28,118 nucleotides of DNA from a virus. Positions within the stretch are counted from its first letter, which is position 1. The number at the start of each line of letters is the position of its first letter. The DNA lies in the IMG/VR virus record IMGVR_UViG_3300037847_000165, positions 1-28,118 of that record; one strand, given 5' to 3'. Below, piece by piece: positions 5,555 through 20,975 of the stretch. The notes beneath the pieces are model-generated. The model saw only the letters and a program-made list of their open reading frames with translations. It was not told the origin of the DNA and made no database searches. The position numbers and the translations under genes are program-made.

Positions 5555-6259
5555 ATGAAAAACTTTCAAATTAAAACAACATCAGATTATAATATATTTT
5601 TGCATGTTATAGGAAATAGACCAATTAATAAATCTAATGTAAATAGGTTAAAAGAATCTATTAGCGAAATAGGTTTGCAAGTTCCTATTTTAGTGAATAA
5701 AAACAAAGCAGTAGTAGATGGGCAACACAGATTACAAGCATTAAAGGAATTAAATCTTCCTGTAACTTACGTTGAGTCTGTAATAACAAAAGAAGAACAC
5801 ATTCCAGATTTACAAGTAAGTAAAGTTTGGACTGGTTTAGACTATGCAAAAAAAAATGCTGCACAAGGTTATGAAGAATGTATTAAAGCATTAGATATTG
5901 CAGATGAATGGCATGAGTTAACAAACAAAAAATTTTCCAAAATAAATATTCTTGAATTATTAAATAAAAACTCATTAACTCAAGTTAAATTATATTTAAA
6001 AAATAAAACATATAAAGTAGATATAGATAATGGAATAAGAGTTTTTAATTGCCTTAATATTTTGAATAAAAATAAATCTGTAAGGTTTAACCCATATACA
6101 GCAACAAACGCAAGAGCTTTAAAAAGATTAAACAAGAAAATGAAAGGTTTAAAATATAAAGTAATAGAAAAGTTTAATAGACATTATTTAGATTCTTTTA
6201 CTCATGCTCAAGAACAATATAATTATTTAAAAGATTTATATAAAAAATATGACAGATAA
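5555..6259 (+). CDS. ParB/Srx-like N-terminal domain protein
   Basis: This is a 234-residue protein. Residues 20-75 match the ParB/sulfiredoxin fold: NRPINKSNVNRLKESISEIG (21-40), LQVPILVNKNKAVVDGQHRL (41-60) with the GQHR signature in place of the ParB GERR box, then LKELNLPVTYV. In ParB this box binds CTP, and in relatives it supports nuclease or ATPase activity. Residues 110-234 are lysine-rich helices without a recognised family. The DNA is unusually AT-rich in the second half: by hand count 6001-6060 and 6121-6180 hold about 17-18% G+C, against about 32% in 6661-6720, suggesting recent acquisition. Such proteins in phages often sit near methyltransferases, as here. A DNA-binding or regulatory role is inferred. 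Confidence 0.75.
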   Translation: MKNFQIKTTSDYNIFLHVIGNRPINKSNVNRLKESISEIGLQVPILVNKNKAVVDGQHRLQALKELNLPVTYVESVITKEEHIPDLQVSKVWTGLDYAKKNAAQGYEECIKALDIADEWHELTNKKFSKINILELLNKNSLTQVKLYLKNKTYKVDIDNGIRVFNCLNILNKNKSVRFNPYTATNARALKRLNKKMKGLKYKVIEKFNRHYLDSFTHAQEQYNYLKDLYKKYDR

Positions 6260-10234: not shown

Positions 10235-10885
10235 ATGAAAGTAGACGTAAAGATTCCAGACACCCTTAGTGAGATTACTCTAGGGCAATATCAAAAGTAT
10301 ATTAAGATACAAGAGCAAAACGAAGATGAAAACTTTATAGCTCTTAAAATGTTAGAAATATTTTGTGGTTTGAAAGGTCAAACAGTACTTAACATGAAAA
10401 CAAAAAGCATAAAAGAAATAACTGATATTCTAGTAAAAATGTTTTCTGAAAAACCTCCACTTGTAAGAGAGTTTAAAATGAATGGTGTTAACTATGGTTT
10501 TATACCAAACTTAGAAGATATGACTTTTGGCGAATATATTGACCTAGATACGTTTGTAGGTAAGACAGAAGATTTACATAAAGCTATGGGAGTTTTATAT
10601 AGACCAATAACACATAAAAGAAAAGAATTATATTGGATACAAAAATATAAAGGCGACGACACTAACTTAATGAAAGATATGCCAATGGATGCAGTTTTTA
10701 GTTCCATGCTTTTTTTTTATCATTTAGGGACAGACTTGTCGAGAGTTATGCTGAACTATTTGGAACAGGACAACGAGGAGAATATAGCGCAGCAGCTAAT
10801 TTCTCTCGAAAATGGGGATGGTATCAATCGCTTCAAGGACTCGCTCAGGGAGATATTACAAGAATTGAAGATATCACTAAATTAA
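10235..10885 (+). CDS. Tail assembly chaperone-like protein, zero-frame product
   Basis: Read without frameshifting this gene gives 216 residues. The N-terminal 160 residues look like a compact conserved domain: IPDTLSEITLGQYQKYIKIQ near the start, a helical middle, then VNYGFIPNLEDMTFGEYIDL (about 88-107) and YRPITHK (127-133). After nine Ts at 10710-10718 the zero frame continues for 55 codons of unremarkable sequence that overlaps a much more protein-like -1 frame. The position upstream of tail completion genes and tape measure is where siphoviruses keep G/GT chaperones, which are made as short and frameshifted forms. The short form is therefore a plausible G equivalent, unless the break is an assembly error. 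Confidence 0.7.
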   Translation: MKVDVKIPDTLSEITLGQYQKYIKIQEQNEDENFIALKMLEIFCGLKGQTVLNMKTKSIKEITDILVKMFSEKPPLVREFKMNGVNYGFIPNLEDMTFGEYIDLDTFVGKTEDLHKAMGVLYRPITHKRKELYWIQKYKGDDTNLMKDMPMDAVFSSMLFFYHLGTDLSRVMLNYLEQDNEENIAQQLISLENGDGINRFKDSLREILQELKISLN

Positions 10886-10974
10886 ATCTGCATACTTGTT
10901 TGTATGCTTTAAGCTATATGAAAGACAAATCAGAACTCGAATCGAGACAAATGAAAAGTAAATTTAAAAGATGA
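10235..10974 (+). CDS. Tail assembly chaperone-like protein, -1 frameshift product
   Basis: Slipping back one base at T TTT TTT (10711-10717) joins the first 161 codons to an open -1 frame running to TGA 10972-10974, giving about 246 residues. The added 85 residues look like a genuine domain: FRDRLVESYAELFG, then NFSRKWGWYQSLQGLAQGD, then ITRIEDITKLNLHTCLYALS and a basic tail SKFKR. I associate the KWGWYxSxxxLAxGD...LHxCLxxL pattern with the C-terminal part of single-ORF homologues in Bacteroidota phages. The next gene's ATG (10971) overlaps this stop, not the zero-frame stop 86 bases upstream, which supports the -1 end as the true gene end. Either programmed frameshifting or one missing T in the assembly explains the break. 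Confidence 0.7.
10711..10717 (+). other. -1 ribosomal slippery site T TTT TTT
   Basis: Within C TTT TTT TTT A, the zero-frame codons CTT TTT TTT form a canonical X XXY YYZ heptamer, so both P- and A-site phenylalanine tRNAs can re-pair after a -1 slip. A small hairpin (GACA 10729-10732 / TGTC 10737-10740) starts 11 bases downstream but is weak. No strong upstream Shine-Dalgarno-like stimulator was seen. Confidence 0.6.
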
Positions 10975-11444
10975 GCAATCAAGGAGTAAGAGGATATTAT
11001 CAAATAACAGACACCATTAAGACTAATCTATTAGCAGATGAAAATGTCAACACAGTAACAACAGGCGATATATTTGACATTGACTTAGCTAAACAAACTA
11101 TATTCCCATTAGCTCATATTATAGTAAACTCTGTAGCGATACAAGAAGCAGTCCTCAACTTCAACATTACTATTATGTGTATGGATATAGTAGACGAATC
11201 GAAAGACGAAACAACAGACTTATTTAGAGGTAACAACAACGAGCAAGATATCCTCAACACACAACTAGCAGTAGCAAACAAATTAGTAGGATTATTAAGC
11301 AAAGGCACATTATACCAAGACAAATATCAATTATCTGGTGATGCTTCTTGTGAGTTCTTTTATGAAAGGTTTGAGAATAGATTAGCAGGGGTAGCTTGTA
11401 CTTTTAATGTATTAATAGCAAATGATATAAACGTATGCAGTTAA
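10971..11444 (+). CDS. Tail-terminator/completion-like structural protein
   Basis: This 157-residue protein begins at the ATG overlapping the -1 frame stop of the chaperone gene. It starts MSNQGVRGYYQITDTIKTNL, has FPLAHIIVNSVAIQEAVLNF (about 45-64), an acidic loop with ETTDLFRGNNNEQDILN, then NTQLAVANKLVGLLSKGTLY and FFYERFENRLAGVACTFNVL near the end. This order (strand, loop, LAVANKLV helix, ERFENRLAG strand) is what I associate with a conserved neck or tail-terminator protein in Bacteroidota phages, and the length is typical of tail terminators. It lies next to an HK97 gp10-like gene, which fits. The role is inferred from pattern and neighbours. Confidence 0.65.
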   Translation: MSNQGVRGYYQITDTIKTNLLADENVNTVTTGDIFDIDLAKQTIFPLAHIIVNSVAIQEAVLNFNITIMCMDIVDESKDETTDLFRGNNNEQDILNTQLAVANKLVGLLSKGTLYQDKYQLSGDASCEFFYERFENRLAGVACTFNVLIANDINVCS

Positions 11445-11935
11445 CCGAAGTAAAAGCAGAATTAGAAAAGTTTGCTAAGCATGTTATAAAACAAGCTAGA
11501 ACTAATTTATCAAAAAGAAAAAAAAATAGTTCAAAGAGACTATATAATAGTTTGGGTTATAATATAAACGCTAATGAAGAAAGAGTAAACGTAATTTTTC
11601 AAATGGAAGATTATGGTAAGTTTCAAGATGAGGGAGTAAGTGGAACAAAAACAAAATATAAAACACCTTATAGATATAAGTCTAAAATGCCACCAACTAA
11701 GGCTTTTAGTCAATGGGTTGTTAGAAAAGGTTTAAAAGGTGTAAGAGATGAAAAGGGAAAGTTTATTGCAAGAAAAAGTTTACAATACTTAATAGCAAGA
11801 AGTGTATTCTTACATGGGATAAAACCAAGTATGTTTTTTACTAGACCCTTCAATCAAGCATTTGACAAATTAGAGCCAGAGTTACAAGATAAATTTGGCA
11901 TAGATATAGAAAACTCAATAATTGATTTTGAATAA
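11435..11935 (+). CDS. HK97 gp10-like tail completion protein
   Basis: This is a 166-residue basic protein. An N-terminal helix (LTEVKAELEKFAKHVIKQAR) is followed by a lysine-rich loop and the strand-rich core NVIFQMEDYGKFQDEGVSGT (52-71). The Y-G-x-F-x-D-E-G-x-S-G feature is typical of gp10/minor-tail proteins. A KAFSQWVVRKGLKG helix and GIKPSMFFTRPF (about 129-140) follow. The C-terminus is acidic. Such proteins help attach the tail to the connector. It overlaps the previous gene by 10 bases and touches the next (TAATG), so the three are translationally coupled. Confidence 0.72.
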   Translation: MQLTEVKAELEKFAKHVIKQARTNLSKRKKNSSKRLYNSLGYNINANEERVNVIFQMEDYGKFQDEGVSGTKTKYKTPYRYKSKMPPTKAFSQWVVRKGLKGVRDEKGKFIARKSLQYLIARSVFLHGIKPSMFFTRPFNQAFDKLEPELQDKFGIDIENSIIDFE

Positions 11936-14942: not shown

Positions 14943-15085
14943 TGATAAAAAATATATTAGAATTATTGCCACTTGTACAAGGCGAAACAGAAAACATAAG
15001 AATTGCAAAAGGCAAATATAAACTTCCAGAAAGTGTTAAGGAAGCATGGCAACGATTTAAGCAACAACAGAAAAACAAAAAATAA
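14942..15085 (+). CDS. 47-residue small protein before tape measure
   Basis: The start ATG shares its A with the preceding TAA, and the stop shares a base with the tape-measure ATG (TAATG). The protein MIKNILELLPLVQGETENIR continues IAKGKYKLPESVKEAWQRFK and ends in a lysine/glutamine tail. The seamless spacing and protein-like composition (no low complexity before the tail) argue it is translated. It may be a small tail-assembly factor. No family is recognised. Confidence 0.62.
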   Translation: MIKNILELLPLVQGETENIRIAKGKYKLPESVKEAWQRFKQQQKNKK

Positions 15086-16941
15086 TGAGTAAAGAAGTCA
15101 AAATAGAATTAATTGTTGATTCAGGAGAAGCACAAAAAAATATTCAAGATGTTAATGCAGGACTTGATAAAACTGACAAGAATCTAAAGCAAACAAACAA
15201 AACTGCTAAAAAAGGTAAAAAAGGTTTTATAAGTTTAGCAGGTGGGGCTAGAGTATTAGGAGCAGCTTTAAAAGCAGCAGGTATTGGTCTTGTTATATCA
15301 GCTATAGCAGGTTTAAGCTCAGCTATGTCAAACAATCAAAAAGTGATGGACACTTTAAGTTTAGCCACAGGAACAGTTACACAATTTTTTACTGATTTAG
15401 TAGCTGCTGTTACAGACGCCTTTACAGCAACAGAAGATTTTACAAGTCAGTTTGATGCCTTAGGTAGAATTGTAGGTGCATTTGTTACTGGTGTAGGTGC
15501 AAATTTTTCTACTACGTTTCAAGCAATTAGAGGTAGTGTTTTAGGCGCACAACTTGCTTTTGAAAAATCTTTTTTTGGTGGTAACGATGCTGATAAAATT
15601 AAAGAGCTAGAAAGTGGTTTAATAGATGTAAACTTAAAACTTGTAGAGAATGCACGAACTGTCTTAGATTCAACAAAAACTATTGTTAAATCAATACCAG
15701 AAGCTGTTGGAGAAGTTGTAAATATAACTACAACAGCAGCAGACGCTGTAACAAAAGTAAGTATTAAAAGTGCATTTGAAACAACAAAAAACTTGCAACA
15801 ACTTACCAAAGAAGCAGAATTAGCAAAAGTGAAGAATCAAGGTTTAATAGAGGAGTTTGATAGGTTAGCAGAAAAACAAAGACAAATAAGAGATGACGAT
15901 AGAAAAGGTATTAATGAAAGAATAGAGGCAAACGAAAAATTATTAGAGCATTTAGAAGACCAGAAAGAAAAGATGTTAGAAAATGCAAAGGCTATGAAAG
16001 CTCAAGCTCAAGCTCAGTTTGACGCTAATAAAAGTGATGCAAATAACATAAAACTTCAAGAGGCAAAAAACGAATTGAAAGCAATAGAAGCTCAAATAGA
16101 AGGTTTTATGTCTGAGCAAAAATCAAATGCTGTTGCTTTAGAAAAAGAATTAAACGAATTAGAAATATCTGGTTTACAAAATAAAGCAGAGTTACAAAAA
16201 GCAGAAAGAGATTTTAAAGCTGAGATGATACAAGATGATGTAAAGCGAACTCAAATGCTGATAGATAATCTTGCAATCGAAAAAGAATTAGACAGAGAAA
16301 GGTTACAATCAAAAATAGATTCCTTTCAAGCAGGAACACAAGCTCAACAAGATGCTCAACAAGAATTAGATTTATTTTTAGCAGAGAGTGCAAGAACAGA
16401 AAAAAAATTAAAAGCTGATTTAGTAAAATTTACTGACGCAGCAGATAAAAAATCAGCCGATAACGAGAAAAAATTACAAAAACAAAAAGTAGAAAACATA
16501 AGAGGTGCGCTATCCGATATAGCAAGTATCGTAGGTGCTAACTCAAAGTTTGGTAAAGCTATAGCTATTGTACAAGCAATTCAAGACACTTTTGCAGGTG
16601 CTAACAAAGCTCTAGCACAAGGTGGTATATTTGGTTTTATTGGAGCAGCTTCAGTAATTGCAGCAGGTCTTGCTAATGTAAAAACAATTACGAGTACTAA
16701 GTCACCTAAACCACCTGCAAGTTTAGGGGCAAGAGATACAGGAGAAAGCGCACCTGCGATTCCAGCAGCAGCTACAGCTTCTTTACCTCCACAATTTGAT
16801 ACAGTTGGAGCAAGTGGTATAAATCAACTAGCAGATGTTTTAGGAAACCAAGCACCACCAAGAGCATTTGTTGTATCAGGAGATGTAAGTACAGCACAGG
16901 AATTAGATAGAAATATTATTAGTAGTGCAAGTATAGGATAA
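15085..16941 (+). CDS. Tape measure protein
   Basis: This 618-residue protein fits a siphovirus tail length ruler. It has an N-terminal helical region (SGEAQKNIQDVNAGLDKTDK), a hydrophobic segment (about 50-80, VLGAALKAAGIGLVISAIAG) and a second hydrophobic patch (about 92-112). A long K/E/Q-rich coiled coil follows from about 235 to 470, including a short AQAQAQ stretch. A C-terminal hydrophobic module (GKAIAIVQAIQDTFAGANKA then GIFGFIGAASVIAAGLANVK) is typical of Bacteroidota-phage tape measures. Helical tape measures span roughly 0.15 nm per residue, which would suggest a tail near 90 nm. No peptidoglycan hydrolase domain is visible. The order tail proteins then tape measure then head genes is unusual. 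Confidence 0.85.
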   Translation: MSKEVKIELIVDSGEAQKNIQDVNAGLDKTDKNLKQTNKTAKKGKKGFISLAGGARVLGAALKAAGIGLVISAIAGLSSAMSNNQKVMDTLSLATGTVTQFFTDLVAAVTDAFTATEDFTSQFDALGRIVGAFVTGVGANFSTTFQAIRGSVLGAQLAFEKSFFGGNDADKIKELESGLIDVNLKLVENARTVLDSTKTIVKSIPEAVGEVVNITTTAADAVTKVSIKSAFETTKNLQQLTKEAELAKVKNQGLIEEFDRLAEKQRQIRDDDRKGINERIEANEKLLEHLEDQKEKMLENAKAMKAQAQAQFDANKSDANNIKLQEAKNELKAIEAQIEGFMSEQKSNAVALEKELNELEISGLQNKAELQKAERDFKAEMIQDDVKRTQMLIDNLAIEKELDRERLQSKIDSFQAGTQAQQDAQQELDLFLAESARTEKKLKADLVKFTDAADKKSADNEKKLQKQKVENIRGALSDIASIVGANSKFGKAIAIVQAIQDTFAGANKALAQGGIFGFIGAASVIAAGLANVKTITSTKSPKPPASLGARDTGESAPAIPAAATASLPPQFDTVGASGINQLADVLGNQAPPRAFVVSGDVSTAQELDRNIISSASIG

Positions 16942-16972: not shown

Positions 16973-18544
16973 ATGAGAATCGTTGAATTAATTTTAGGAG
17001 ATGATGAGCTAACAGGAATTGAAGCTATATCTGTAGTAGAAAATCCTGCAATAGAAGAAGATTTTATCGCACTTAAAAGCGAAGAAATAAAACTTGCTGA
17101 GGTAGACAAAGAGAAGCGTATTCTCATGGGTGCTTTACTAATTCCTAACAAACCTATTTACAGAAAAAAAGGCGAAGAAGAATATTATATATATTTTTCA
17201 AAAGACACAGTATCTAAAGCATCTCAATTATACTTAATGAATGGCAATCAGTCAAAAGCAACATTAGAACACCAACACACGATTAATGGACTGACACTTG
17301 TTGAATCTTGGTTAGTAGAAGATGAGGTACATGATAAATCAAGAAAGTATGGATTAAATGTTCCTCTAGGTACTTGGATGGGTGCAGTAAAAGTAAACAA
17401 TGATGATATCTGGAACAACTTTGTAAAAACAGGTAAAGTTAAAGGTTTCAGTATAGAGGGTTACTTTGCTGACAAAATGGAAAGACCTAAAGAACCTGTA
17501 AACGACTTTGAGGAAGAAGAAGCAGAAGAAATGTTGTCTGTAATAAGGTCTATAATAAAAGAGGACAAACGTTTAAAGGGTGGTAAGAGACGAGAACTCG
17601 AAGCATATAGCGATTACCCAGACGCAGTAAAGAACAACGCTAAAAGAGGTATAGAACTAAACGACAAAGTCAACAATAAATGTGCTACACAAGTTGGCAA
17701 GATACGAGCTAGACAACTAGCACAGGGTCAACCAATCTCCAAAGAAACAATAAAGAGAATGTTTTCTTTTTTAAGTAGAGCAGAGGAATACTACGATGAA
17801 AGCGATACAAAAGCGTGTGGCACTATATCTTATTTACTTTGGGGTGGTAAAGCAGGTAAGAGATATGCAGAGTCTAAACTAAAAGAATTAGAAGAACTGG
17901 AATTAGCTAGTATGGTTGTCAATGACGAGTTTGCAATAATAGACGACAGACTTGGATATTCAACACAAGAGAAAGCTGAGGAAATGGCTAAGAACATAGG
18001 ATGCGAAGGTTTTCATACGCACGAGTTTGAGGGCAAAACTTGGTATATGCCTTGTGAGTTTCACATAAAAGAGGATATGAAGAAATGTCCTAAGGGTTTT
18101 AAAAAAGTCTATGGTAAGTGTGTTAAAATGGCTGAGGTAGGCGAAAGAGGTGGAATTCGTAAATCTCCTAAAGCACCAAAGTCAGATACACCAAATCCAA
18201 ACCCAAAAGGCAAAGGAACAGCAAAAGGCGATGCCTCTACAACAAGAGGTGCTAAGGTGTCTAAAAAAGATGAAGCGACTTTAAAAAAAAAGTCTGACGA
18301 GTTTAACGAGAGATACAAAAAGAAATTAGGTTATGGTGTAAATGTAGGAATGTTAAAAGCAGTATTCCAAAGAGGTTTAGGTGCATTTAACGTTTCAAGA
18401 AGTCCTAGAGTTTCTAGTGCTTCACAATGGAGTTTTGCTAGAGTAAACGCTTTTTTGTACTTAGTAAAAAATGGTAGACCACAAAACAAGAAGTACACAG
18501 GCGACAACGATTTGCTACCAAAAGGACACCCTAAAAAACCATAA
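16973..18544 (+). CDS. XkdF-type prohead protease with extra C-terminal modules
   Basis: This is a 523-residue multidomain protein. Residues 1-170 match the XkdF-like phage serine protease: DDELTGIEAISVVENPAIEE, MGALLIPNKPIYRK, a histidine-bearing TLEHQHTINGLTLVESW (98-114), LGTWMGAVKV and VKGFSIEGYF (156-165), where Ser160 is the likely nucleophile and His100 or His102 the partner. Residues 207-310 form a second module (YSDYPDAVKNNAKRGIELND, CATQVGKIRARQLAQG, ACGTISYLLWGGKAG). Residues 334-385 hold GCEGFHTHEFEGKTWYMPCE. Residues 440-523 form another module (GYGVNVGMLKAVFQRGLGAF to LLPKGHPKK), separated by a Pro/Gly/Lys-rich linker. The protease matures scaffold and capsid, whose genes follow. 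The added modules are known to me as movable pieces in phage head proteins, without clear function. Confidence 0.82.
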   Translation: MRIVELILGDDELTGIEAISVVENPAIEEDFIALKSEEIKLAEVDKEKRILMGALLIPNKPIYRKKGEEEYYIYFSKDTVSKASQLYLMNGNQSKATLEHQHTINGLTLVESWLVEDEVHDKSRKYGLNVPLGTWMGAVKVNNDDIWNNFVKTGKVKGFSIEGYFADKMERPKEPVNDFEEEEAEEMLSVIRSIIKEDKRLKGGKRRELEAYSDYPDAVKNNAKRGIELNDKVNNKCATQVGKIRARQLAQGQPISKETIKRMFSFLSRAEEYYDESDTKACGTISYLLWGGKAGKRYAESKLKELEELELASMVVNDEFAIIDDRLGYSTQEKAEEMAKNIGCEGFHTHEFEGKTWYMPCEFHIKEDMKKCPKGFKKVYGKCVKMAEVGERGGIRKSPKAPKSDTPNPNPKGKGTAKGDASTTRGAKVSKKDEATLKKKSDEFNERYKKKLGYGVNVGMLKAVFQRGLGAFNVSRSPRVSSASQWSFARVNAFLYLVKNGRPQNKKYTGDNDLLPKGHPKKP

Positions 18545-20450: not shown

Positions 20451-20975
20451 ATGGCTTGTATATTAACAAAAGGTAGAGCTTTACCCTGTAAAACAGGAGT
20501 AGGTGGTTTAAAAGCTGTTTACTTTTCAGACTATGGTAGTTATGGTGCTTTGACACAATCTGGAGGAGAAGTTTCTGGGTTTGGTGGAAGTCCTACATTA
20601 ATGAAGTTTGACATTAAAGGCACATCAACGCTTGACACGACTGTAACATCATCAAGAGAAAATGGAACAACTTTCTACGAATCAACTTTAGTTCTTAACT
20701 TAACATTCCAAGAAAAAGCAACATCAGAAGAAATTAAATTATTAGCAGTTGCAAGACCACAAATCATTGTAGCTGATTATAATGGAAATTTCTTTTTATT
20801 AGGCGAAGTACATGGAAATGAGTTAACGACTGGAACGTTTTCAAGTGGAGCTGCTATGGGAGATATGTCTGGTTATTCCTTGACATTCACATCATCTGAG
20901 GTTAATCCTCCATTATTTGTACAGAAATCTGTAATAGATGGTGCAACTGAGGGTACTCAAATAACACCTAATTAA
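20451..20975 (+). CDS. Probable major tail tube protein
   Basis: This is a 174-residue, beta-rich protein. It opens MACILTKGRALPCKTGVGGL, followed by KAVYFSDYG. The middle reads MKFDIKGTSTLDTTVTSSRE and NGTTFYESTLVLNLTFQEKA. The end contains IIVADYNGNFFLLGEVHGNE and AMGDMSGYSLTFTSSEVNPP. The C...KGR...C...GG-(I/L)-K opening, the S-R-E-N-G-T-x-F-Y-E strand and the G-Y-S-x-T-F-x-S-x-E end are features I connect with the conserved tube-type protein of Bacteroidota siphophages. It stands between two terminators, giving an isolated single-gene unit that may be set by read-through from the capsid gene. Confidence 0.68.
   Translation: MACILTKGRALPCKTGVGGLKAVYFSDYGSYGALTQSGGEVSGFGGSPTLMKFDIKGTSTLDTTVTSSRENGTTFYESTLVLNLTFQEKATSEEIKLLAVARPQIIVADYNGNFFLLGEVHGNELTTGTFSSGAAMGDMSGYSLTFTSSEVNPPLFVQKSVIDGATEGTQITPN

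Follow-up and report, generated by a model that had tools for sequence, protein, structure and literature searches.

A conserved in-frame T_TTT_TTT junction points to -1 recoding of a tail-module gene in a marine flavobacterial phage family

We analysed a virus record from IMG/VR, 28,118 bases long, referred to here as the window. The features of the locus are listed in Table 1. Across the T run the zero-frame codons read CTT TTT TTT TAT, and this frame ends at a TAA (10883-10885), 55 codons beyond the slip site. Starting at 10717, the -1 frame comprises 85 codons and closes with a TGA (10972-10974) that overlaps the ATG at 10971, and joining zero-frame codons 1-161 to this extension yields a fusion of 246 residues. 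Upstream, a TAG at 10699, 18 nt before the slip site, closes the -1 frame, which contains no ATG, GTG or TTG before 10900 (codon 62 of 85); it therefore could not be started alone as a whole. These positions confirm an earlier note on this DNA, which had described an in-frame slippery heptamer within nine Ts and a -1 frame of 85 residues whose stop overlaps the next ATG.

Table 1. Features of the candidate frameshift locus and its downstream neighbours in the window.
Feature	Position	Strand	Evidence
Zero-frame ORF, putative short product, 216 aa	10235-10885	+	ORF list, phrog_32199 match, relatives
Nine-T run holding the in-frame slippery heptamer T_TTT_TTT (10711-10717)	10710-10718	+	Sequence, junction conservation
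-1 frame extension, 85 aa and TGA	10717-10974	+	Sequence, relatives, weak phrog_38404 match
Dual-coded overlap, 55 zero-frame codons past the slip site and stop	10718-10885	+	Codon-position rates, two-frame rates, simulation
Next gene, 157 aa, ATG overlapping the -1 frame TGA	10971-11444	+	phrog_30964
Tape-measure candidate	15085-16941	+	phrog_3336 'tail length tape measure protein' (E 6.2e-7 over part of the protein); phrog_32985

The run at 10710-10718 is the only sense-strand run of at least nine Ts inside a long gene of the window. The other T runs of this length, at 1614-1622 (nine Ts) and 1653-1662 (ten Ts), lie between long ORFs, just after the ORF at 1236-1613, and nine-A runs occur within ordinary long ORFs at 5848-5856, 11518-11526 and 18283-18291. 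The candidate frameshift gene adjoins the large terminase gene, both here and in the phage P12024S, and four genes separate its end from the tape-measure candidate. A candidate tail tube protein is encoded further downstream, at 20451-20975.

Relatives were collected by scanning viral contigs with the -1 domain and the N part as queries, which recovered 285 relatives of the -1 extension in a first scan and at least 590 in an alignment scan. Of 228 distinct junctions among the matches listed, all but one place the C part at -1 relative to the N part, at an in-frame T_TTT_TTT; these 227 comprise 148 runs of nine Ts and 79 of ten. Because the same junction recurs throughout these distinct members of the family, it is not attributable to chance. 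The phenylalanine of the slip codons is encoded by TTT in all 49 divergent representatives, compared with 320 TTT and 85 TTC codons elsewhere. A contig 99.3% identical to the window over 6.2 kb carries the same nine Ts, with zero differences inside the gene.

Several further observations were made in the course of this comparison. The sole junction among the matches listed that breaks the rule (1/228; L030, ~4001) has nine Ts against ten in L025, its near-identical sister, and the frame of L030 meets a stop after the run; this exception is probably a homopolymer error. One 53 kb contig, IMGVR_UViG_3300030202_000332 (L086, L125, L043), bears two different copies of the gene about 26 kb apart, perhaps representing two phages joined in assembly or lying in tandem. 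Many relatives also contain a purine-rich, GGAGGAGGA-like stretch some 40-60 bases past the slip site (alignment A4, columns 75-100), which codes for Glu repeats in the zero frame and for Gly in the -1 frame.

Two isolated Nonlabens phages, P12024S and P12024L, share the slip codons CTT TTT TTT TAT with the window, with 28.7% identity in the N part. Their genes 38/39 and 40/41 are homologous to the N and C parts of the window gene and have the same neighbours; a homologue of the gene at 10971-11444 likewise follows. The zero-frame tail of P12024S continues for 25 codons past the slip site, compared with 55 here. The zero-frame ORF matches the profile of phrog_32199 over most of its length (E 2.6e-21, residues 5-171 of 216), as do 49 of 49 representatives, and the -1 extension weakly matches phrog_38404. 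In PHROGs these N and C parts form two unlinked families without known function, and GenBank, which mentions no frameshift, records the gene as two separate hypothetical ones (L160, 8995-9689; L344, 352-1046; P12024S/L). The literature searched contained no work on frameshifting in P12024 or flavophages.

Selection on the overlap was assessed in several ways. Codon-position rates were computed on 765 sequence pairs of 3-25% divergence. After the overlap, positions 1, 2 and 3 of the -1 codons showed 0.16, 0.08 and 0.35 changes, respectively, and within the overlap 0.21, 0.13 and 0.18. The drop at the third position, from 0.35 to 0.18, is predicted by constraint on the zero frame, since that base is the second position of a zero-frame codon. 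Additionally, two-frame substitution classes were counted per opportunity on 36 independent close pairs. Changes silent in the -1 frame and altering the zero frame occurred at 0.058, those silent in the zero frame and altering the -1 frame at 0.048, and those altering both at 0.020, compared with 0.12-0.15 for silent changes in the single-coding parts; the class silent in both frames comprised 4.5 events, too few to weigh.

The zero frame is also open for 53-64 codons in 120 of 120 unique sequences. When codons were redrawn by usage with the -1 amino acids fixed, it stayed open with a median probability of 0.0035 per sequence, a value whose product over sequences is not readable as a probability because the sequences share ancestry. 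Synonymous drift simulated from the window sequence left the zero frame open in approximately 28-55% of cases at 30-50% third-position change. Both frames are thus under purifying selection over the 55 codons, and both the short and the long product are likely made, as the earlier note had allowed. That note was right that the zero frame continues for 55 codons, but the sequence it called unremarkable is conserved and selected. It had also envisaged homologues keeping the zero-frame tail instead of the -1 tail; both tails are conserved.

More distant relatives encode the protein without interruption. Fold matches in BFVD led to Flavobacterium phage 6H and from there to phages with a single ORF, namely Flavobacterium 23T, laban6-1, Cellulophaga Ingeline, Polaribacter Leef_1, a Microcystis phage and Bacteroides phage BT-TP2, whose proteins comprise 259-301 residues. 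The alignment between the profile of these proteins and the frameshift fusion ran from one end to the other (hhalign P 6.7e-15; column-shuffled controls 0.3-1.0). The C halves alone gave a collinear but weak alignment (P 7.4e-4), and the zero-frame tail did not match the C halves of the single-ORF proteins (P 0.54). Since distant relatives encode an end-to-end homologous single ORF, the fusion corresponds to the full-length protein of the family. The question of whether homologues are single ORFs, posed in the earlier note, therefore has a divided answer: the distant ones are, whereas the 227 junctions described above are split at -1. In the Duneviridae members (Flavobacterium 23T, laban6-1 and Cellulophaga Ingeline), the gene is one open frame without a shift, lies in the tail or neck module, and encodes Leu-Phe-Phe at the matching place without a long T run. 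Homology between the gene following the frameshift gene and the one following the Duneviridae homologue was undetectable.

On this evidence, we consider it probable that the locus undergoes conserved programmed -1 recoding, with a short product of 216 residues and a long product of 246 residues, in a layout resembling lambda G/GT. Most ribosomes would stay in the zero frame and produce the short protein, and a minority would shift at T_TTT_TTT, where tRNA-Phe on UUU UUU may re-pair one base back. The shifted product would have the first 161 residues in common with the short form and a different C-terminal domain of 85 residues, while the short form would have a separate, selected tail of about 55 residues. 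The two proteins, present in unequal amounts and built on a common N domain, might then act in tail assembly, upstream of the tape measure. The data show the frame relation, how well it is conserved, the selection on both frames and the existence of single-ORF relatives, whereas we infer that it is the ribosome that slips, that it does so rarely, and that the products act as chaperones. Among the single-ORF relatives, the long form by itself seems to suffice, which was counted against the two-product reading.

The same 246-residue fusion would arise if RNA polymerase inserted an additional U while transcribing the nine or ten Ts and the transcript were translated normally. The length and phase of the run fit both ribosomal and transcriptional slippage. 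Among the matches listed, the run has nine or ten Ts and never seven or eight, and nine is the length reported for bacterial slippage on A/T runs, including slippage of bacterial RNA polymerase at nine-T runs (PMC5009743, PMC1088944). Moreover, no signal of a stimulatory RNA structure above dinucleotide shuffles was found upstream or downstream of the slip site (downstream mean z 0.1 to 0.65), a result likewise counted for a polymerase event. However, judging from the slip codons, the amino acids around an in-frame T_TTT_TTT would force nine or ten Ts in any case. Furthermore, other long ORFs at these loci contain 22 T runs and 21 A runs of at least nine bases, so long runs are evidently tolerated, and the phage tail cases in a published review are ribosomal (PMC5009743). 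Less favourable to the ribosomal reading is that in E. coli ribosomes slip less readily at U_UUU_UUU than at A_AAA_AAG (PMC5009743). Frameshifting of 6-7% has been measured in two tail-chaperone-type genes (PMC3711429), and infrequent slipping that lacks a strong stimulator would fit the product ratio of a chaperone. We moderately favour ribosomal frameshifting, in line with the known phage tail cases, and regard polymerase slippage as a serious but rather unlikely source of the fusion.

The function of the products is a separate matter. As in lambda gpG/gpGT, a short and a long product with a common N part would result from a -1 shift late in a tail-module gene that lies upstream of the tape measure. 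Lambda G, however, has the slip site GGGAAAG followed by five zero-frame codons, whereas the window has T_TTT_TTT followed by 55 dual-coded codons. In P2, gene E/E+E' uses a nearly identical slippery heptamer, T_TTT_TTG, for a GenBank-annotated -1 shift, so there is precedent for a T-rich slip site in a gene of this kind; P2 E has 91 aa and six zero-frame codons after the slip, and lies directly before gene T. Measured against this group, the window gene has its slippery heptamer towards the end of the first ORF, with sequence and conservation pointing to a programmed -1 slip, and both products are conserved in relatives. It departs from the group in that its zero frame does not end within a few codons of the slip (55, compared with 5 and 6) and in that four genes intervene before the tape measure, whereas lambda G/T, P2 E and Mu gp41 stand directly beside it. 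The earlier note was accordingly right to place the gene upstream of the tape measure, but not in the G/GT chaperone position. At best, the gene may be G/GT-like in its working, and we claim no membership of that group.

Profile comparison with hhalign detected no match to lambda G or HK97 gp13, and no Pfam chaperone matched above threshold, with one TAC_7 match at E 0.17. Faint fold matches in BFVD, at E 0.026 and 0.29, carry the name tail assembly chaperone, and a PHROG tail-protein match was marginal, involving 22 of 49 members. The AF2 model of the zero-frame protein had a mean pLDDT of 80.9, with residues 179-216 mostly below 50. A PDB fold search with this model (Foldseek, VIA-align) gave nothing meaningful (best Z 2.9), and the sequence profile had no match in PDB. 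The -1 domain modelled alone reached a pLDDT of 65, too weak for a fold search.

Recoding could thus be real and the protein nevertheless another head-tail joining or tail component. The gene's place beside the large terminase gene and four genes from the tape measure would agree with this, as would the position of the Ingeline homologue, which comes after portal and adaptor with one gene between, and the lack of detectable homology to lambda G and HK97 gp13. The finding that two genes stand between the Ingeline single ORF and a TP901-type tape measure was, in contrast, counted for the favoured reading. Most annotated frameshifts in phage genomes concern tail chaperone genes (PMC10885494), and the weak fold and PHROG tail matches also speak against a joining or other tail component, which we judge a less likely, though credible, identity. 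Our best guess, from layout and the faint fold match, remains a tail-assembly-chaperone role; the earlier note's description of the gene as tail chaperone-like is plausible on these grounds rather than through sequence homology.

GenBank annotates P12024S_38 and _39 as two genes, and the second part could in principle be translated from its own start or by termination-reinitiation. This is very improbable: a start codon is absent from the -1 frame ahead of 10900, the frame is closed at 10699, and the conserved FRDRL...KWGWY part comes ahead of any start, so separate initiation of the -1 part was rejected. Weakest of all is the earlier note's suggestion that the run is one T short through sequencing or assembly error and the gene a single ORF, for despite the single-ORF distant relatives and the odd nine Ts of L030, such an error would have to recur identically in 227 distinct junctions among the matches listed, which show the same frame relation, in the isolates P12024S and P12024L, which have the same slip codons, and in the contig 99.3% identical to the window, and it would leave selection on the zero-frame tail unaccounted for; it was ruled out.

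Recoding at this site would extend frameshifting in a tail-module gene to a large family of marine flavobacterial phages, and would mean that databases show two unrelated genes without known function where one frameshift gene stands. The case combines measurable selection on both frames over 55 codons with single-ORF relatives for comparison, and the purpose of the short product is therefore testable. As for its origin, we tentatively propose, at somewhat less than even confidence, that an indel in the T-rich Leu-Phe-Phe of a single-ORF ancestor split the gene, that slipping restores the full-length protein, and that the zero frame grew an overprinted C-terminus of 50-60 residues selected for a function of its own. 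If true, one N domain would carry two alternative functional tails in the same phage.

A related irregularity occurs in Flavobacterium phage 6H (L324, NC_021867, ~10340-10400), which is otherwise near-identical to 23T (L337) but departs from it over roughly 50 bases located precisely where the domains join, with two single-base gaps. The C domain is out of frame in 6H, whereas 23T, 2A and FPSV-F7 each have it in one frame.
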